The notes under the pieces were generated by a model. The model made no database searches and had not been told where the DNA came from. It saw only the letters and a program-made list of their open reading frames with translations. A stretch of 64,000 bases of DNA from an uncultured Verrucomicrobia subdivision 3 bacterium. Lineage in GTDB: Bacteria; Verrucomicrobiota; Verrucomicrobiia; Limisphaerales; UBA11358. A program made the position numbers and the translations under genes. The stretch covers positions 1 to 64,000 of the forward strand of contig CAILMI010000029.1 of assembly GCA_903835255.1 (NCBI GenBank), read 5' to 3'. Below are positions 27,823 through 38,893 of this stretch, piece by piece. The first letter of the stretch is position 1, and each line of letters begins with the position of its first letter.

Positions 27823-30800
27823 ATGAAAACCGTTCGCGACGCCTGCAAACTTCAGCCCAATGCGCTGGCCATCAAACTCAGTGACCAGATCGAGCAGCTC
27901 GACGAACTGATCCAAGCCGAAGGCGACGGCACGGCCTTTTTTGAGAAGACGTTCATCACGGCCGGCATGCAGGAACTCATCAGCGAGGGCGTCGCCCGTC
28001 TCGCATCCGTTTCTTCGACGTCCACCTTTCATCTTAAGCAAGCAATGGGCGGCGGCAAAACCCATTTGCTCGTCGGCTTCGGCCTGCTCGCCAAAAATCC
28101 TGCCCTCCGTAAAAAATACTGCGGTGGTGATGCGAACGCGCAGATGTTCAACAGCGCCAAAGTCGCTGCGTTCAACGGACGCAATAGCCCAGCCACATTT
28201 TTTTGGGGCGAAATCGCCCAGCAACTCGGCAAGGCCGACGTGTTTCAGGAGTATTGGTCATCCGGCCCCAAAGCCCCGGACGAAAAAGCCTGGCTCAAAT
28301 TATTTGAGGGCAAGGACCCAATCCTCATATTGCTGGATGAAATCCCGCCCTACTTTGAAGACCTCGCCACGCGCCCCATCGGCGCGGGCACCGTGGCGGA
28401 CATCGCCACGCGGGCCTTCGCCAATCTCCTGACTGCCGCCGGCAAGAAGGCCAATGTCTGCGTCGTGGTCTCCGACTTGTTTGCCGCCTACCAGACCGGC
28501 GGCGCCTTGATTACCAAGGCCCTCGACAACGCCCGTCAGGAACTGGGTCGCGCCGAGCGCCCCATCACCCCCGTTGACCTCGCCGCCAACGAAATTTACG
28601 ACATCCTTCGCAAGCGCCTGTTCACCGAGCTTCCCGACAAAAACGCGATTGATGACATCGCCGATGCCTACGGTAAAAAATTGGAGGAAGCCTCCAAATC
28701 CAAAGTCGCGAATCGCGGCGCAGAGGCCATCGCCGACGAAATCGTCGCGACCTATCCGTTCCACCCCCGGCTAAAAAACGTCATCGCCCTATTCAAGGAA
28801 AACGAAAATTTCAAACAAACGCGCGGACTCATCGAACTCGTTTCGCGCTTGTTGCGCTCCGTTTGGGATCGCAAGACCAACGACGTTTTTCTCATCGGCC
28901 CGCAGCACTTCGATTTGTCCATTGCCGAGGTGCGCGACAAACTCACGGAAATTTCCGGGATGCGCGACGTCATCGCCAAGGACCTCTGGGATTCCCAGCA
29001 GTCCGCGCACGCCCAGATCATTGACCTCAGCACCGGCAAGGAATCCGCCACGCAGATCGGCTCGCTTCTGCTCACCGCCAGCTTGTCCACGGCCGTCAAC
29101 GCCGTGAAAGGTCTCACCACCGCCGAGATGGTCGAATGCCTCGTGTCGCCCTTACGTGAACCGTCCGAATTTCTTGAGGCGTTTCAGCAGCTCGAAGAAT
29201 CCGCCTGGTATATTCACCACACGCCGGAGGGCCGTTACTATTTTGACCGGCAGGAAAACCTCACCAAGTTGCTCCAAAGCCTGGCGCACGACGCGCCGGA
29301 AAATCAGGTGGACGATCTCATCCGCCATCGCTTGCGCGACATGTTCAAGCCCACGCGCAAATCCGCTTACGAGGAAGTCCTGCCGCTGCCGAAACTGGAT
29401 GACATCGCCGACAAAGTGCGCCGCAGCCGCGTCCTGCTCATCGTCAGCCCGGACTCGAAAGTGCCGCCGGAGGAAGTTCAGAAATTTTTCGACGGCCTCA
29501 GCCAGAAAAATAACCTGTGCGTGTTGACCGGCGACAAAACCGCCATGGGCAGTGTCGAAAAAGCGGCGCGGCAGGTTTACGCCGTGAACAAAGCCGACGG
29601 CCGCATCCCCAAGGAACACCCGCAGCGCGATGATTTGGAAAAGAAGCAGCAGAGCTACGAACAGGATTTTAATTCCACCGTCCTGAATCTGTTCGACAAG
29701 GTGTTGTTCCCCATCCAGCGCGCCGGCAAGCCGCCGCAGCTCGCCCCCAAGAACCTCGACATGGCTCGCGATACCAAGCTGCCGTTTGACGGTGAAGCGC
29801 AGGTGGAAAAAACCCTCACGTCCAATCCGCTCAAATTGTATCTCGATGTCGAAAAGGAGTTCGATCCTATCCGCGACAAAGCCCAGGATTTGCTCTGGCC
29901 GGAGAATCAGGATGAAGCCCGCTGGTCCGACGTGGCCGACCGCTACACCGAACAGGCTGGCATGAATTGGCTCCCGCCCAAGGGCCTCGATACACTCAAA
30001 TCCATTGCCTGCAATCGCGGCCTCTGGGAAGATCTCGGCAACGGCTACGTCACCAAGAAGCCGAAAAAGAAGAAAACTTCAGTTCAGGTGATAGCGGAAT
30101 CCGATCCCAATGATGCGGGTGAAGTCCGCTTGCGGGTGAACGCCCAGAACGCCGGCCCGGCTCCGCGCATCCATTTTGCCGAGGATGCCCCGGTCACCGA
30201 GAAAAGTTCGCTGCTCAAGGACCAGTTCCATACCACCAAGGCGCTCCGGGTGAATTTCCTTGTCGTGGATCCGTCCGGCCAGAACCAAACCGGCGACGTC
30301 GTCACTTGGTCAAACAAGCTCGTCCTTCGCAACAACCTCACTGAAAAAGGCGGTAAGCGCAGTGTTGAGCTGCTCGTCGCGCCCACCGGCAAAATCCGCT
30401 ACACCCTCGGCGGTGAGGAACCCCGTGAAGGCGCGCTTTACGACAAGCCGGTCGAGATTGGTAACGGCGAGGTGATTCTCCGCGCTTTTGCCGAGGCTTC
30501 CGGTCTGGAGGATAAAAAAGAGTTCCGTTATCCCGCCTTGGGCAAAAAAGGCGTGCATGTGGATGACGTCAAACCCGCCCGTCTGGTTTCCCGCACTGGT
30601 CGCAAACTCGACTCGCGCACCAGGACTTTTGATGGCCTCAAGCAAGCCGCTGAAAAATCCGCCACCTTCGAGGGCGTCATGGTCAATGTCGGTCAGGGCA
30701 GCCAGATGGTTGGCTTAACCGTTGGTGATATTCCGGTGTCGGCCCCGTTCATCCAGGGCTTGCTCGAAAAAGTCCTCTCGCTGGAAAAATTCGAGCCGAC

Positions 30801-30912
30801 CACGCCCGTCACCATGACCTTCCGCAAGGCGCACTTCAATTCCGGCCATGACTTGAAGGATTTTGCTGAAAAACTCGGCATGGAGCTGCATACCGGCGAC
30901 GTGGAACAATGA
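27823..30912 (+). CDS. DUF499-type AAA ATPase, predicted anti-phage locus component
   Basis: FHLKQAMGGGKTHLLVGFGLLA Walker A, DPILILLDEIPPY Walker B; context with DUF3780/DUF1156/helicase. Confidence 0.85.
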   Translation: MKTVRDACKLQPNALAIKLSDQIEQLDELIQAEGDGTAFFEKTFITAGMQELISEGVARLASVSSTSTFHLKQAMGGGKTHLLVGFGLLAKNPALRKKYCGGDANAQMFNSAKVAAFNGRNSPATFFWGEIAQQLGKADVFQEYWSSGPKAPDEKAWLKLFEGKDPILILLDEIPPYFEDLATRPIGAGTVADIATRAFANLLTAAGKKANVCVVVSDLFAAYQTGGALITKALDNARQELGRAERPITPVDLAANEIYDILRKRLFTELPDKNAIDDIADAYGKKLEEASKSKVANRGAEAIADEIVATYPFHPRLKNVIALFKENENFKQTRGLIELVSRLLRSVWDRKTNDVFLIGPQHFDLSIAEVRDKLTEISGMRDVIAKDLWDSQQSAHAQIIDLSTGKESATQIGSLLLTASLSTAVNAVKGLTTAEMVECLVSPLREPSEFLEAFQQLEESAWYIHHTPEGRYYFDRQENLTKLLQSLAHDAPENQVDDLIRHRLRDMFKPTRKSAYEEVLPLPKLDDIADKVRRSRVLLIVSPDSKVPPEEVQKFFDGLSQKNNLCVLTGDKTAMGSVEKAARQVYAVNKADGRIPKEHPQRDDLEKKQQSYEQDFNSTVLNLFDKVLFPIQRAGKPPQLAPKNLDMARDTKLPFDGEAQVEKTLTSNPLKLYLDVEKEFDPIRDKAQDLLWPENQDEARWSDVADRYTEQAGMNWLPPKGLDTLKSIACNRGLWEDLGNGYVTKKPKKKKTSVQVIAESDPNDAGEVRLRVNAQNAGPAPRIHFAEDAPVTEKSSLLKDQFHTTKALRVNFLVVDPSGQNQTGDVVTWSNKLVLRNNLTEKGGKRSVELLVAPTGKIRYTLGGEEPREGALYDKPVEIGNGEVILRAFAEASGLEDKKEFRYPALGKKGVHVDDVKPARLVSRTGRKLDSRTRTFDGLKQAAEKSATFEGVMVNVGQGSQMVGLTVGDIPVSAPFIQGLLEKVLSLEKFEPTTPVTMTFRKAHFNSGHDLKDFAEKLGMELHTGDVEQ

Positions 30913-31484
30913 GCGAAAAACTTCAATTCGTGGATTTTGGTGCGCCCGACAAATTCGGCGCGCACCTGTTTCGCATCGAAATTCCGGCTGTGCGCACCGA
31001 GGGCGTTCGCATTGTGGAAGATTATGGGTATCGCGGCCAGGAAGGCGGCATCCCCAAGGATGAAGAACGCGCCGTCCTGAGCCGTCCGGCTTGGGCGGGC
31101 ATCGCGGACATCGCCCGGCGCGAGTTCAACGACCGCCTGAAAGCCGCCAAAGTCACCACCGGCCGGTGGCACAGCGGCACCAATCTCGTGGATCGGCTGC
31201 TCGGCAAAGAACTCTGTGTGCTCGCTTGGGCCGCAGAGACCGCGACCGACAACCAGCTTCCCGTGATTTGCAGCAAGTGGGCCGCGCTCCGCCCCGAGGA
31301 ACGCTGGTGGCTCTTTACCATGACCGTCGCCGAAGCCGGCCTGCCGGAAGACACCCAGCGCGGCTGGCGACGTGCCTTGTTTTTTGCGTTGTCGGACGGT
31401 GAGAAACCGCCGGAAGGCCGCAAACGCCGCCGCCCGGTCGAAAGCGACTTGTTCAGTCTTGCCCTGTTCAAAGCTGCACCATGA
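30909..31484 (+). CDS. DUF3780-like protein of predicted anti-phage locus
   Basis: 191 aa; ATGA overlaps with both neighbours. Confidence 0.8.
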   Translation: MSEKLQFVDFGAPDKFGAHLFRIEIPAVRTEGVRIVEDYGYRGQEGGIPKDEERAVLSRPAWAGIADIARREFNDRLKAAKVTTGRWHSGTNLVDRLLGKELCVLAWAAETATDNQLPVICSKWAALRPEERWWLFTMTVAEAGLPEDTQRGWRRALFFALSDGEKPPEGRKRRRPVESDLFSLALFKAAP

Positions 31485-34400
31485 GTCATTCCATCAAACC
31501 TTTTGCCCTCAAGGAAGCCCCGGCACTCATTGAGCGGCTTCTGCCCGTCCAGAAACTTTCCGCCGAGGTGTTCAAGGAGCGAAAAGCGGGCGCTGGACAA
31601 ACCCTTGTGCCTCTGGGTGCATATTGGAAAGGACGCAAGCCGCTCATCCTGAATAAAGCCTGCATTCTTGGTTGCCTCCTGCCGGCCACGGATAAACCCA
31701 AACGCGATCTTGAAATTTTCGAGAAGCTGATGGCCATGGATGACGAATCGTTCGTCGCCCGTTGGCCGCGTCGCGCCAAGCCCCGTGAAATTTTGGCAAC
31801 CCTGAGCATTGCGCGGATTGCCGATTATTTTAAATCGGACCCGCCCATGTTGCTCCCGCCATCGGCACCGGTGGATTGGTCCAAGCCGGAATTGGAAGAC
31901 GTGAAAGTTCAATGGTGCGACGAGTTCCTCGAGCGTCATGAATGGGAGAAGCTATACCCGAACGCCGACCCGTTAGATTTTAGCCCGCAGCCTTCAGCCT
32001 TGCTTTCTCGACGCCAGCTTGAAGTCCAGATGCTACCAAGAGACAACTACCGTAAACGAGTTGAGACAGCTAGTCGCCCTGAAGAAGTCATAGACACGGT
32101 TCACGTCCATATCTGGGAAGCCGTTAATGCTCACCTGGGCACAAATGCTCATTCGTTCCCGGAATTGATCGAGCAACTTGGCATGATGCGTTTTGGCCAT
32201 CGCCCACAGGTGGCTGATACGTTCAGCGGTTCAGGTCAAATCCCATTCGAGGCCGCACGTCTTGGCTGTGATGTATATGCCTCCGATCTGAATCCTGTGG
32301 CGTGCATGTTGACTTGGGCATCGTTCCGAATAGTTGGAAGCACTATTGATCAGCGCGCAGAGCAAGAGAACCAACAAGAAAAACTCATCAAAAAAGTTTT
32401 AGGGGAAATTGATAAGCTAGGGGTTGAAACGGACGGGCAAGGCTGGCGGGCTAAGGCATATCTTTATTGTGTTGAAGCTCGCTGCCCGCAGTCAGGCTGG
32501 ATGGTGCCATTGATACCCTCGTGTGTTCTTAGTTACGGCAAAAAGGCGATAGCTAATTTGATTCCGATTCCGTCAGAAAAACGCTACGACATCCAAGTTC
32601 ATTCGGGCGCCTCGGAGGATGAAATTCAGAGTGCATTGAAAGGCACAGTTCGTTCCGACGGACGCGGCAAGGACCCATATCTAATTCACAGCGTCAATGG
32701 CGTCGAGTATCGAACAAAAATCTCCACGCTTCGAGGCGATTACCGCAATTCTGATGGTAAAAACGGAAATAAGCTGCGTCTTTGGGAAAAATCTGAATTC
32801 AAGCCACAGCAAGATGACATTTTCCAAGAGCGACTATATGCCGTTCACTGGATGCGTCAGAAAATCGGTGGGAAAAAGTTTGATTATGAGTTCCGCACTG
32901 TTTCCGCCGAGGATGTGGAACGTGAGAAGGTAGTTGAAGGTTTTATATTTGAACACCTTAGAGATTGGCAGGATAAAGGTTGGCTGCCAGACATGCGTAT
33001 TGAGCCAGGAGAAAAGACAGACGAATTGATACGCACGCGAGGATGGACGTATTGGCATCATCTTTTCCCTGCCCGACATTTGATGCTTCTAGGGCTGATG
33101 CGAAAATACGGGGCTGACGCTAATTCGCTTACAATGTTTTCCCGAATTTTGAATTACGCCGGAAAACTGTGTATTTGGTCAACATCAAAGCCTGGATCAA
33201 GCAAGGCGGGTGAAGGTGGTAGAACTGGTGGCGGTAGCGACAACCCAGTAAATGTTTTCTACAACCAAGCACTGAACACACTTTTTAACTACGGATGTCG
33301 CGGAGCATTTCCTCTTTTGGAAATGTTCAATCTTGAGTTTGTTCCTTCGCCTTGCGCTGGGACGATGAAGGTAGCTTGCCACCAAGCATCTGAATTACCC
33401 ACTTCCCCAGATATTTGTCTCACGGATCCTCCCTACGGAGACGCTGTTAAATACGAGGAAATTCTTGAGTTTTTTATTGCATGGCTTAGGAAAAATCCGC
33501 CGCCAGAGTTCGCAGATTGGGTTTGGGACAGCCGCCGTTCGTTAGCTATCAAGGGAGAAGATGAAGACTTTCGACGCGGAATGGTGGCTGCCTACCAGCG
33601 CATGACCTCGTGTATGCCAGACAATGGCATTCAAGTAATCATGTTCACTCACCAGTCGGAAAGCATTTGGGCGGATATGGCGAATATCGTTTGGGCTTCC
33701 GGCCTCCAAGTCACCGCTGCGTGGTATGTTGTCACAGAAACGGAAAGCGCCCTGCGTGATGGTAGCAATGTGAAAGGCACTGTGTTGCTCGTTTTGCGAA
33801 AGCGAACCGGCGCTCTCAAGACCACTCGCGACGAACTTGCGTGGGAAATTCAAGAAGAAGTCGAAAAGCAAATCCGAGACCTCACTGGTCTAAATCAGGA
33901 AGCCAAGGGCCTTTACCGGGATGAAAACGTATTTGAGGACGCCGACATCCAGATGGCCGGTTACGCTGCTGCCCTGCGTGTGCTAACCCGTTACGCCATT
34001 ATTGATGGTCGAGATATGTCCACGGAAGCTATACGTCCCCGCGTGAAAGGTGAGACGACATTCGTGGACGGCCTCATCGCCTTCGCCGTTGACACCGCCA
34101 ATCAATGCCTCGTCCCGCAGGGAATCCCGGAGCGACATTGGAAGGAATATACCGGTGCAGAACGGTTTTACCTTAAGATGCTTGACCTTGAAGCTAGGGG
34201 GCTCAAGAAGCTCGACAACTACCAGAATTTTGCAAAGGCATTCAAAGTCCGCGAGTTTCACCCACTTATGGGCAGTCAGGAAGCAAACGAATCCAGACTC
34301 AAGACCGCTGTTGAGTTAGGCAAAAACGAAATGAGCGAAGGCTCGGAACTTCATTTATCCGTCCTTCGGGCCGTCCTCTACGCCATCATGGAACTCACGG

Positions 34401-34594
34401 GCAATATGGATAGCAATGATGTCCTCGCCCACCTCATCCTGAACGTGCCGGATTATTATTCCAACCAGACCCAGCGCGAGCGCGTCGTCGAACTCGCCGA
34501 TTACCTCGCCAAGAAACTGGAAATTCTTCGCCCGGACGAAGCCAGCGCCGCCCGCGTTCTGCGCGAGTTGGTAAAAAATCAGCGGCTTGGGTGA
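31481..34594 (+). CDS. DUF1156-type adenine-specific DNA methyltransferase
   Basis: VADTFSGSGQIPFEAARLGCDVYASDLNPVA (motif I) and ICLTDPPYGDAVKYEEI (motif IV); 1037 aa. Confidence 0.88.
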   Translation: MSHSIKPFALKEAPALIERLLPVQKLSAEVFKERKAGAGQTLVPLGAYWKGRKPLILNKACILGCLLPATDKPKRDLEIFEKLMAMDDESFVARWPRRAKPREILATLSIARIADYFKSDPPMLLPPSAPVDWSKPELEDVKVQWCDEFLERHEWEKLYPNADPLDFSPQPSALLSRRQLEVQMLPRDNYRKRVETASRPEEVIDTVHVHIWEAVNAHLGTNAHSFPELIEQLGMMRFGHRPQVADTFSGSGQIPFEAARLGCDVYASDLNPVACMLTWASFRIVGSTIDQRAEQENQQEKLIKKVLGEIDKLGVETDGQGWRAKAYLYCVEARCPQSGWMVPLIPSCVLSYGKKAIANLIPIPSEKRYDIQVHSGASEDEIQSALKGTVRSDGRGKDPYLIHSVNGVEYRTKISTLRGDYRNSDGKNGNKLRLWEKSEFKPQQDDIFQERLYAVHWMRQKIGGKKFDYEFRTVSAEDVEREKVVEGFIFEHLRDWQDKGWLPDMRIEPGEKTDELIRTRGWTYWHHLFPARHLMLLGLMRKYGADANSLTMFSRILNYAGKLCIWSTSKPGSSKAGEGGRTGGGSDNPVNVFYNQALNTLFNYGCRGAFPLLEMFNLEFVPSPCAGTMKVACHQASELPTSPDICLTDPPYGDAVKYEEILEFFIAWLRKNPPPEFADWVWDSRRSLAIKGEDEDFRRGMVAAYQRMTSCMPDNGIQVIMFTHQSESIWADMANIVWASGLQVTAAWYVVTETESALRDGSNVKGTVLLVLRKRTGALKTTRDELAWEIQEEVEKQIRDLTGLNQEAKGLYRDENVFEDADIQMAGYAAALRVLTRYAIIDGRDMSTEAIRPRVKGETTFVDGLIAFAVDTANQCLVPQGIPERHWKEYTGAERFYLKMLDLEARGLKKLDNYQNFAKAFKVREFHPLMGSQEANESRLKTAVELGKNEMSEGSELHLSVLRAVLYAIMELTGNMDSNDVLAHLILNVPDYYSNQTQRERVVELADYLAKKLEILRPDEASAARVLRELVKNQRLG

Positions 34595-34740
34595 GCAAAC
34601 AGATTGAAACATCATGCACCGCAACCCATTCCACCAAAAAGCTTTGGAATCGAATGCGAAGGGATGCAAAAAGGTGTTGATTTCCGCCGTGAACCAACCG
34701 ATAATTCCAGCACGTCTGAGTGAGATGCTATGCGCCTCAT

Positions 34741-34775
34741 GCAGGGCCTTAGGGACCTGCCTTAGACGTTTTTTT
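34741..34775 (+). terminator. weak intrinsic terminator or attenuator between methyltransferase and DUF3800 gene
   Basis: GCAGG-G-CC-TTAG-GG-A-CCTGC hairpin then T7 after 8 nt. Confidence 0.35.
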
Positions 34776-34794
34776 ATTCCCCGGGAGTCTTCTT

Positions 34795-35730
34795 ATGTAT
34801 TTTTGCTACCTTGATGAATCAGGCACGCCCCAATTAGGAGCGCAAACGTCACACTTCATTTTGTTGGGCATGGCGATTCCCGCCGCCGCCTGGCATCAAA
34901 AGGATCGGCGCGTGAATGTCATAAAGGCGCGCTATGGTCTGAAAGATGCGGAAATTCACACCGGCTACATTGCGCGCCGGTTTCCCGAGCAGGAACACAT
35001 CGCTAATTTTGAAAAGATGAATCCGACTCAGCGTCGGGCCGCAATGGCTCAGGAACGCAAAAATTCGCTGATCAAAGCCGCAGCCTTAAAAACGGGCGAC
35101 CGCCTGAAATCGCTCAAGAAACAATATGCGAAATCCGCCGACTACATCCACCTCACCCACGCAGAGCGAACCAAATTATTACAGGAATTAGCGGACGAAA
35201 TTGGTTCATGGAACGATGCCCGCTTGTTTGCCGAGGCGGTGGATAAAGTAACGATGCCACCAGGCGTCGATATTTTTGAAAAGGCTTTCGAACAGGTCGT
35301 CACCCGGTTTCACACTTTTCTGACCAAACGCGAAGGCGAGCGGGTGAAGCGGGGCGGCTCCTCTACGGGCATTTCTGTGGATAATCAGGGGCTTCTGATT
35401 CAAGACAACAATCAGACGGTCGCAAAAAACATCACGGCGTTGATGCGTAAGTTCCATCATCAGGGAACGCTCTGGGCCAAAGTGGACCGCATCATCGAGA
35501 CGCCGCTGTTTGTGGATAGCAGTCTGACCAGCATGGTTCAGATGGCGGATCTTTGTGCCTATGCCACACGCCGGTTTTTCGAAAATGGCGAGACAGATTT
35601 ATTCGACCGCATTATTGGACGGTTCGACCAGGCCGGTGGCAGAATCGTGGGTATCCGGCACTATGTGGGCGGAAAAAACTGCGCATGTAAAGTCTGTGCC
35701 GCCCATCGAGGACAAAAGAAAACGAAATGA
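34795..35730 (+). CDS. DUF3800-family protein (predicted RNase H-like nuclease fold)
   Basis: MYFCYLDESGTP...HFILLGMAIP; FVDSSLTSMVQMADLCAYATRRFFENGE; C-terminal CACKVCAAH; stop overlaps helicase start. Confidence 0.85.
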   Translation: MYFCYLDESGTPQLGAQTSHFILLGMAIPAAAWHQKDRRVNVIKARYGLKDAEIHTGYIARRFPEQEHIANFEKMNPTQRRAAMAQERKNSLIKAAALKTGDRLKSLKKQYAKSADYIHLTHAERTKLLQELADEIGSWNDARLFAEAVDKVTMPPGVDIFEKAFEQVVTRFHTFLTKREGERVKRGGSSTGISVDNQGLLIQDNNQTVAKNITALMRKFHHQGTLWAKVDRIIETPLFVDSSLTSMVQMADLCAYATRRFFENGETDLFDRIIGRFDQAGGRIVGIRHYVGGKNCACKVCAAHRGQKKTK

Positions 35731-38441
35731 CACAGCCCGGCGCCATCAACCGTTTTTCCTCCCGTCGCCAGCGGCTGGATCACGCGTTCCTGTCGAAGAA
35801 GCTCGCGGGCGCAAAATCCTACCGCCGCATTGCCGGTTATTTCCGCAGTTCGATTTTTGAACTCGTCGGCGAGGAAGTCGCCGGCATTGCCAAAGTCCAG
35901 ATTGTCTGCAACAGCGAGCTAGACGCCGCCGACGTCGCCATTTCCCAGCACGTCCGCGAAACCGCGTTGAAAGAGCGGTGGAATGAAGCCCCCGCCGAGG
36001 TCGAAGCGCTATTGCACAAAGACCGGTATCGCCAGCTTTACAATTTGCTCATAAGCGGTTGCGTGGAGATTCGCGTCGTGCCCAAGGATCGTGTCTTCAT
36101 TCACGGTAAGGCCGGGGTTATCGAAGCCGCCGATGGCAGCAAGACCTGTTTTCTCGGCTCCATCAACGAAACCAAGAGCGCCTTCGCTCATAACTACGAA
36201 ATTCTTTGGGAAGACCAATCGCCGGAGGGTGTCGCGTGGGTCGAGGAGGAGTTTGACGCGCTCTGGAAGGATTCGTATCCGTTGCCGGACGCCATCATCG
36301 AGGAAATCAAGCGCGTCGCCGACCGCGTCGAAATCCGCTTTGATGAGGTCAAACCCGCCGAATTGCCCGGTGCGGCGCTGGCCGAGACGCCCATCTATCG
36401 CGGCGGCGAACAGCTCCAGCCGTGGCAGCGGGCGTTCGTAACCATGTTCCTCAAGCACCGCGAAACCTACGGCAAGGCTCGTCTGCTGCTGGCCGATGAA
36501 GTCGGCGTCGGCAAAACGCTGTCGCTGGCGGCCAGCGCCATGATTTCGGCGCTACTCGACGACGGCGCGGTTCTCATCCTTTGCCCTTCCACCCTCACGT
36601 TGCAATGGCAGGTGGAGTTAAAAGACCGTCTGGGCATCCCCAGCGCGGTCTGGTTGTCCGGCCAAAAAGTCTGGGTTGATCCCTACGGTCACACCATAAA
36701 AACCCGTGGCCCGGAAGACATCACGCATTGCCCGTTCCAGGTGGCCATCGTCTCCACTGGTTTGATTGTGCATGAGTCTCCCGAAGCCCAGCTTTTGCTC
36801 GGCCGCAAGTTTGGCACGGTAGTTTTGGACGAAGCTCACAAGGCTCGCCGCAGCGGCGGCTTGGGCCAGAAAAAGGATGAACCCAACAACCTGCTCGATT
36901 TCATGCTGCGCATCGGGACGCGCACGAAAAATCTCCTGCTGGGCACCGCCACGCCGATTCAGACCGAGGTCAGCGAGCTTTGGGATTTGATGCGGATTTT
37001 AAATTCTGGCGCGGATTTCGTCTTGGGCCGCGAAGCCATGAGCATGTGGGTGAATTTGCAACGCGCCTTGCCCGTGGTAAAGGGCACCGAAATCCCGCTC
37101 GACGAGCGCGACGCCTGGGAATGGTTGCGTAATCCACTCCCGCCGGGTGACGAGGAACCGCTGGTTGCCAACTTGCGCCTCCAGCTCGGCATCCCTGAAA
37201 ACGCATTCTTCACCGACAAAGGATTCGGCTCGCTTGAATTTTTCGCCCAACAATCCGTCCTCCAGACGTTGGAGCCCGCCTTCTATCAGCAGCACAATCC
37301 CATTATTCGACACACCGTCCTGCGCCGTCGCGAGACTTTGGAAGAGGCTGGTTTACTCGAACGGATCGAAGTGAATGTCCATCCCGAACCCAATGCCCCC
37401 ACGACGGCTTACCTTGGAGTGCATTTTGACGGCCTCGGTTTGTTGACGAACCACCCGTTCGACTTGGCATATCAGGCCGCCGAGAATTTCACCGCCGCCT
37501 TGCAGCAGCGGACCAAGGCCGCAGGGTTCATGAAATCCATGCTGCTCCAGCGCATCTGTTCCAGCTTTGCCTCCGGTCGCAGCACCGCCAAAAAGATGTT
37601 AGGAAGGGAATTGCTGGATGACGATGAACAGGCCGAATTGTTACTTGATCAGCTCAGTTCACTAACTCCGACGGAGGCCGGCCATCTTCGGACCATCGTC
37701 GAGGAATTGTCCCGGCCCGAGGCGCACGACCCGAAACTCGCCGCCGTTCGCTACTTCCTGACCGAACACCGGACCGAGGGTAAAACCTGGTTGGAACACG
37801 GTTGCATCATCTTCAGCCAGTATTACGACACGGCATTCTGGATCGCGTCGGAACTCGCCAAGACCCTGCCGGGTGAGCCGGTGGCCGTGTATGCCGGCAC
37901 CGGCAAGAGCGGCATGTTTCGCGGCGAGGATTTCGCTTCCATCGAGCGCGAGGAAATCAAAAAGGCGGTCAAGAAACGCAGCGTGCGGCTCGTGGTCGCC
38001 ACCGATGCCGCGTGCGAAGGCTTGAACCTGCAAACGCTCGGCACGCTCATCAACGTGGATTTGCCGTGGAATCCGTCACGGCTCGAACAGCGGCTCGGCC
38101 GCATCAAACGCTTCGGTCAGGCGCGGCGTTCCGTGGACATGCTGAATCTTGTTTATCACGACACGCAGGATGAAAAGGTGTATTCGGTCATCTCCCGCCG
38201 CCTGAAAGACAAGTTCGATATCTTCGGCGGCGTGCCCGACACGATTGAAGATGAGTGGATAGACAATATCGAGAAGCTGGAGGAAAAAATGGATGAATAC
38301 ATCCATTTGCGAACGAAAGCTCGCGACGTGTTTGAACTCCGCTACAAGGAAACCATTGATCCCGATGCCAACCGCTGGGACCTCTGCTCCCGCGTCTTGG
38401 CCCGCAAAGACGTCGTCGAAAAATTGTCCGAATCCTGGTGA
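35727..38441 (+). CDS. PLD-like domain + SNF2/DEAH helicase
   Basis: HGKAGVI...GSINETKSAFAHNYE (PLD), LLADEVGVGKTLSLAA (Walker A), VVLDEAHKARR, helicase C-terminal DAACEGLNLQTLGTLINVDLPWNPSRLEQRLGRIKRFGQ. Confidence 0.92.
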   Translation: MTQPGAINRFSSRRQRLDHAFLSKKLAGAKSYRRIAGYFRSSIFELVGEEVAGIAKVQIVCNSELDAADVAISQHVRETALKERWNEAPAEVEALLHKDRYRQLYNLLISGCVEIRVVPKDRVFIHGKAGVIEAADGSKTCFLGSINETKSAFAHNYEILWEDQSPEGVAWVEEEFDALWKDSYPLPDAIIEEIKRVADRVEIRFDEVKPAELPGAALAETPIYRGGEQLQPWQRAFVTMFLKHRETYGKARLLLADEVGVGKTLSLAASAMISALLDDGAVLILCPSTLTLQWQVELKDRLGIPSAVWLSGQKVWVDPYGHTIKTRGPEDITHCPFQVAIVSTGLIVHESPEAQLLLGRKFGTVVLDEAHKARRSGGLGQKKDEPNNLLDFMLRIGTRTKNLLLGTATPIQTEVSELWDLMRILNSGADFVLGREAMSMWVNLQRALPVVKGTEIPLDERDAWEWLRNPLPPGDEEPLVANLRLQLGIPENAFFTDKGFGSLEFFAQQSVLQTLEPAFYQQHNPIIRHTVLRRRETLEEAGLLERIEVNVHPEPNAPTTAYLGVHFDGLGLLTNHPFDLAYQAAENFTAALQQRTKAAGFMKSMLLQRICSSFASGRSTAKKMLGRELLDDDEQAELLLDQLSSLTPTEAGHLRTIVEELSRPEAHDPKLAAVRYFLTEHRTEGKTWLEHGCIIFSQYYDTAFWIASELAKTLPGEPVAVYAGTGKSGMFRGEDFASIEREEIKKAVKKRSVRLVVATDAACEGLNLQTLGTLINVDLPWNPSRLEQRLGRIKRFGQARRSVDMLNLVYHDTQDEKVYSVISRRLKDKFDIFGGVPDTIEDEWIDNIEKLEEKMDEYIHLRTKARDVFELRYKETIDPDANRWDLCSRVLARKDVVEKLSESW

Positions 38442-38452
38442 ACCGGTTCAAG

Positions 38453-38893
38453 TCATGGCAAATAAGGCCATGCCCCTTTAGCTCCATAGTCTTCCATCAA
38501 TTCCACCATGGAGACACACGGCATTTCGTGAATTTTGAAAGCCGCATACGTTGGGTAAAGCGTAATCAAGGCCGGCAGGTTTTTTAACTCGGTTTCGACA
38601 TTGCCAAGAATTTTTCCGAGTAATTTACGGTTGTTGGCTAGCCAATCTATTTTTCTGCGAAGCTGCGCCATAAACGAATTTTTACCAATTGTAAACTGCG
38701 AGATTTCATTCCGAAACTGACGCGATTCAAAACCAACCTCAACCATCTTGGATTCCACCACGACAAGCGCGGCGTCGTTTTTTGAGTATCCCAAAAAGTC
38801 GAGTTACCCCACTTCAGGCGGAATATTAATCGTCGCACCATTGCCAATGATACGCCCCTTTCTGGAATGGGCTAAAAGGGGAATAGTAACGTG
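38453..38893 (-). pseudogene. remnant of a PD-(D/E)XK-like nuclease C-terminal region
   Basis: Same-frame peptide HVTIPLLAHSRKGRIIGNGATINIPPEVG*LDFLGYSKNDAALVVVESKMVEV... with TAA at 38804-38806 and truncated N-terminus. Confidence 0.5.

Follow-up and report, generated by a model that had tools for sequence, protein, structure and literature searches.

The 64,000-nucleotide stretch analysed here (the window) probably holds two superimposed things, a standard Type-2 BREX-related (BR) operon and, in a recurrent slot within it, a mobile RNA-nuclease cassette that is possibly type III toxin-antitoxin-like. The operon core is known. The new part is the cassette, a structured RNA followed by a DUF3800 gene, and it is itself of a loosely known type.

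Five genes on the + strand make up the operon, with open reading frames at the coordinates given in the first-pass annotation. The first encodes a DUF499 AAA+ ATPase of Type-2 BR (27823..30912; NF042962 equivalog, 1478 bits; full-length match to PDLC02192) with the Walker A motif GGGKT and Fn3-like domains near its C terminus (PF13287/PF13290 at 845-897). Next come a DUF3780 protein, the marker of Type-2 BR (30909..31484; NF042961 equivalog, 232 bits, cut-off 200; PF12635, E 2.5e-70), and a DUF1156 adenine-type DNA methyltransferase with FSGSG and DPPY motifs (31481..34594; NF042963 equivalog, 1275 bits; PDLC02189). The DUF3800 gene (34795..35730; PF12686, E 1e-15) precedes the PLD(HKD)-SNF2 helicase effector of Type-2 BR (35727..38441; NF042964 equivalog, 1233 bits; PDLC02193), which carries an N-terminal HKD (PLD) nuclease domain (PF13091 at 26-180) and the motifs HGKAGVIE (at 126), GVGKT, DEAH and RLGRIKRFGQ. 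Direct reading of the sequence shows the ATGA overlaps at 30909, 31481 and 35727. Pfam, NCBIfam and PADLOC agree with the domain names assigned earlier: their models match the four core genes over nearly the full length, and PF12686 matches DUF3800. Directly after the helicase, a 113-aa ORF on the opposite strand (38453-38794, - strand) is possibly a gene remnant.

The four core proteins match the curated equivalog models NF042961-NF042964 end to end and above cut-off, and by these matches the core belongs to an anti-phage system of four genes that is related to BREX and has been described before. The annotation had predicted an anti-phage operon with a core that was probably known, and both expectations hold: this is an ordinary member of the Type-2 BR system published in January 2026 (PMC12839542), which is distinct from the PADLOC HmaA/B/C models. 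Its set of DUF499, DUF3780, DUF1156 methylase and helicase was right and the name given to it, Hma, imprecise. The best PADLOC matches of the core genes are the separate DUF499, DUF3780, DUF1156_MTase and PLD_Helicase models, and HmaA/B/C models appear only as distant secondary matches. An identity with Hma (PADLOC HmaABC) was rejected on a score of 182 bits for HmaC versus 1588 bits for the DUF499 model. In such a core, methylation would be expected to mark self DNA and unmarked phage DNA to be degraded, with DUF3780 as a candidate reader.

The chain of overlaps is interrupted where ~200 nt separate the stop of the methylase gene (34594) from the start of DUF3800 (34795), exactly before the gene regarded earlier as the new part. 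This gap contains a promoter-like site and the gene of a structured RNA. The sigma-70-like promoter, TTGATT-17-GATAAT (34677..34705, + strand), sits just 5' of the RNA stem, a placement seen in most relatives, in which a TTGACA/TATAAT-like pair recurs at near-constant distance, with mostly 6-9 nt between the end of its second box and the stem. The RNA (34710..34777, + strand; match to covariance model R1) forms a predicted three-way junction with the outer stem ACGUCUGAG/CUUAGACGU, then a T-run (34769-34775). It was recognised only by comparing the upstream regions of DUF3800 relatives, where the element precedes nearly every DUF3800 gene in the set (consensus GCGTCTGGGATGAGTCGCCAAGCGTCTC...GGGGC...GCCCC...CCCAGTCGCTTTTTTT). 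The RNA escaped a simple terminator scan, since two hairpins, and not a short loop, lie within its stem.

Comparative data support the fold. RNAalifold, applied to a MAFFT alignment of 50 sequences, returned a three-way junction of 18 pairs, 9 of them with compensatory changes. Standard pairs filled 95.7% of cells versus 34-48% in slid versions of the alignment, and double-changed cells numbered 43 versus 11 in shuffles. On four of five measures 500/500 shuffles fell below the observed value, in a kind of test that relatedness inflates somewhat. The window copy, from outside the training set, scored 41.4 bits with R1 (E 1.1e-7 over 1.28 Mb), is the only match in the genome and has an MFE z of -3.0. 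Searches of Rfam 15 gave nothing at gathering score in the window and nothing at E<=5 in the methylase-DUF3800 gap, and no weak match of the RNA was credible or belonged to an Rfam DUF3800 motif, a comparison that covers Rfam families only. GCGUCU pairs with AGUCGC in both the outer stem and the first hairpin, and each helix has a central mismatch. This is U-U in both helices of 40 of the 50 sequences, and in three others both helices carry A-A. This A-B-A-B strand repeat also permits alternative pairing.

The DUF3800 protein (PF12686, 59.2 bits, cut-off 21) yielded an AlphaFold model from 63 sequences with a mean pLDDT of 95.1 and a pTM of 0.92. Top Foldseek matches to the model were type 2 RNases H (2dff, 1uax, 1eke and 3puf), with probability up to 0.99, a modest best E of 5e-3 and TM of 0.29-0.47; the PDB, searched by sequence with the DUF3800 profile, held nothing credible. 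Four residues, D7, E8, D204 and D252, are invariant across 64 sequences, and the DESG at residues 7-10 resembles the DEAG motif of RNase HII. The model and these residues point to a predicted RNase H2-like nuclease. At the C terminus, the motif H289/C296-x-C298-x2-C301, with C296 and C298 invariant and C301 nearly so, may bind zinc. DUF3800 has also been called an RNase H-fold nuclease by others (PMC10910872, PMC12669027).

We built a profile from the window DUF3800 together with three relatives, scanned 85,462 species genomes with it and kept 80 loci. Upstream R1 matches accompany 65 of 67 intact DUF3800 genes; of the remaining two, L082 has an RNA of the same fold and L089 an RNA that scores when searched. 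The RNA is also kept in 12 of 13 broken or truncated copies, one of the 13 being merely cut by a contig end. Among 2.9 million viral contigs, eight have the exact RNA pattern, and all eight carry a DUF3800 gene or its remnant and were found independently by protein. An alignment-based viral scan for DUF3800 recovered 11 loci, and a single-protein viral scan for its relatives found none. Collectively, these counts show that RNA and protein go together almost without exception, in proviruses as well as across many phyla. One RNA unit stands upstream of nearly all DUF3800 genes, with extra separate copies only in L073 (3109-4511) and L092 (9694-9988), where two or three follow one another; the two extra copies in L073, both decayed, lie on either side of an apparent REP-type Y1 transposase gene.

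That the RNA is kept beside broken protein, and that no intact protein occurs without RNA, fits a type III-like pair and fits a cofactor or a leader as well. A strictly cis-regulatory leader of DUF3800, an attenuator or riboswitch with no role as a separate molecule, would draw on the alternative pairing allowed by the four A-B-A-B strands (GCGUCU/AGUCGC) and on the position of the RNA, which mostly ends 1-60 nt before the start codon with a T-run. We regard this as unlikely. In the main fold the stem that precedes the T-run is paired, which would set the default state to off, and the RNA persists without an adjacent intact DUF3800 at L111, L112, L164 and L165, though these may be remnants. 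Copies that lack an intact downstream partner come from two genomes of the same phylum (L111 and L112, each at 1501-1571) and from two viral contigs in which no more than the first 28 codons can be recognised. Upstream of its RNA copy, L111 encodes a different DUF3800 protein (314-1168).

Comparison with the closest relative delimits the cassette, which comprises upstream DNA, RNA and the DUF3800 gene (34662..35730, + strand). The relative, L028 from another verrucomicrobial MAG, encodes a DUF3800 protein of 90% amino-acid identity. DNA common to the two is confined to 34662-35711, the gene with ~130 nt upstream, at 85% nucleotide identity, with nothing beyond it within the 10 kb compared; the 5' edge is thus approximate and the 3' edge lies somewhere from 35711 to the stop codon. 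The L028 copy sits after proA, in a neighbourhood unrelated to that of the window, and a search of its genome for DUF3780 had no match. Across the set, neighbour genes are common to only 36 of 2926 locus pairs, and DUF3800 neighbourhoods showed no recurrent partner gene. Clean empty sites were sought in three places: the proA region of the window's own genome had none (gene order after proA differs), Mesorhizobium had none (the upstream DNA is repeated sequence with many partial copies), and Nitrospira gave a right flank only, with no junction. Because no clean empty site was found, the case for mobility draws on the scattered neighbourhoods and one close pair. Taken together, the pairing, the decayed copies, the co-occurrence on viral contigs and the rarely shared neighbours lead us to describe RNA and DUF3800 as a putative horizontally moving, dispensable two-part unit.

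A different kind of mobile or guided system must be weighed here. In such an RNA-guided or RNA-templated system, with a layout comparable to OMEGA, the RNA would load on the RNase H-fold protein and direct it to DNA or an RNA-DNA hybrid, or its hairpins would act as single-stranded DNA in transposition. The RNase H2-like fold, the constant RNA partner and the scattered distribution, proviruses included, would all suit such a system, as would the DUF3800 protein that accompanies Cas12a2 loci (PMC10910872). Against it, the RNA has no variable guide segment, its loops being short and its sequence conserved, and neither terminal repeats nor a conserved 3' edge of the cassette were found, and we consider it very improbable.

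The first-pass annotation had proposed DUF3800 as a translationally coupled component of the operon, a claim that comparison of BR loci does not support. No DUF499, DUF3780 or methylase gene was found near the subfamily DUF3800 at any of the 80 loci, some on contigs so short that absence is uncertain locus by locus; a single locus, L047, has an SNF2 C-terminal match nearby. We examined 19 other BR loci, 14 of which have methylase and helicase both in reach, and none of these 14 junctions holds a DUF3800 of the subfamily. Methylase and helicase are 10-57 nt apart in 10 of the 14; in the other four, different genes intervene: Schlafen-AlbA_2 in L018 (3551-5236) and L131 (12549-14006), a PIN/VapC pair in L129 (13423-14183) and an unassigned gene in L122. 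The junction appears to be a reused insertion slot because 4 of 14 loci are interrupted by other genes. In Candidatus Thiodictyon, a VapC-type gene occupies the same slot with a 4-nt overlap with the helicase start. Another gap of a Type-2 BR locus, between DUF3780 and methylase, holds an embedded PIN/VapC-like or Schlafen gene in L124 (7674-9220). Such embedded PIN/VapC-like and Schlafen genes suggest reused insertion slots.

As a functional, coupled subunit or backup nuclease effector of the BR system, DUF3800 would have in its favour the ATGA overlap with the helicase, the commonness of auxiliary nucleases in BR loci and a distant DUF3800 protein, without the RNA, in the DUF3780-methylase gap of the verrucomicrobial BR locus L016. 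The subfamily, however, is absent from every other BR locus sampled, DUF3800 comes with a promoter-like site, an RNA and a T-run of its own, ~130 nt of upstream DNA moves along with the gene, the cassette is found in unrelated neighbourhoods, including beside proA and in proviruses, and DUF3800 goes unmentioned in the main text of the BR survey (PMC12839542). Within our sample DUF3800 stands at this position only here, which is the finding that the annotation itself had named as speaking against its proposal. We judge a coupled subunit improbable. Real as it is, the overlap with the helicase seems to be a side effect of insertion, and the cassette appears to have entered a BR operon in a single capture. 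Because the helicase start overlaps DUF3800, the two genes may be functionally coupled to some extent in this strain. Relatives lack a counterpart of helicase residues 1 to ~5 (MTQPG; 35727-35741), as though insertion of the cassette had renewed the start codon.

Two verrucomicrobial loci carry distant DUF3800 genes. L016 (G158:C70, 3297-8064) is a BR locus with about six ORFs between DUF3780 and methylase, among them the distant DUF3800, DUF5131 and an AAA ATPase. In L019 (G158:C146, 1048-4818), from a second verrucomicrobial genome, an SNF2 helicase and another large helicase-like gene precede a distant DUF3800 gene, after which comes a Schlafen AlbA_2-like gene; this appears to be a further defence locus.

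We return to the reading that we prefer, a mobile cassette in a standard operon. The cassette would be autonomous, ordered as promoter, ~65-nt three-way-junction RNA, T-run and DUF3800 RNase H2-like nuclease. The RNA would be transcribed from its own promoter with partial termination before the nuclease gene, and RNA and T-run would limit read-through into that gene. The nuclease is predicted to act on nucleic acid while controlled by its own RNA or in complex with it; the likeliest form would be a type III toxin-antitoxin-like pair in which the RNA binds or restrains the nuclease. Such a pair might survive as selfish or anti-phage cargo, here filling a slot that PIN or Schlafen nuclease genes take in other BR loci. 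Insertion would have placed a T-run and a new upstream gene before the helicase, expression of which may now depend on the cassette.

DUF3800 proteins occur in bacteria, phages and some CRISPR loci. The cassette is a compact two-part unit with a strongly conserved RNA and a confident protein model; its candidate catalytic residues are invariant, and nature supplies versions that are decayed or reduced to the RNA, which makes it a directly testable system. A more tentative proposal takes the uncatalogued RNA family and the RNase H2-like DUF3800 nuclease as a ribonucleoprotein module, immune or toxin-antitoxin in function, that is widespread and has moved horizontally across many phyla and prophages and can be captured in BREX-related operons as an RNA-controlled backup effector. 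The case also carries a caution: overlap-coupled genes in defence operons may be insertions in a reused slot and not components.

Compared with known systems, the core agrees with Type-2 BR in its DUF499 ATPase with Fn3-like domains, stand-alone DUF3780, DUF1156 methylase and helicase with N-terminal HKD and SNF2 domains, and its gene order is that of most BR loci seen here; it differs by the RNA-DUF3800 cassette between methylase and helicase, absent from the 14 other loci and from the main text of PMC12839542. Auxiliary or backup nucleases are reported within or beside BREX and BR cores, with PIN, Schlafen and HEPN beside BR cores (PMC12839542). The cassette is alike in placing a nuclease gene in or beside the core, in a slot also used by PIN and Schlafen genes, whereas an RNase H2-like DUF3800 with its own RNA is unmentioned in the main text of that paper. 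A general DUF3800-RNA association is already known (PMC10910872), and Rfam holds at least the DUF3800-associated RNA motifs DUF3800-I (RF02969) and DUF3800-IX (RF02968), named in PMC11701678. The window RNA resembles these as a structured RNA associated with a DUF3800 gene, but it is not catalogued in Rfam, matching no Rfam 15 family, and is set apart from them within Rfam only. With type III toxin-antitoxin systems (ToxIN-like), the cassette shares a layout of promoter, small structured RNA, terminator-like element and nuclease gene in one short locus, and an occurrence on both phages and chromosomes. The RNA antitoxins of type III systems are usually tandem repeats; here, in contrast, a single RNA unit precedes a predicted RNase H2-like protein and not one of the ToxN fold.
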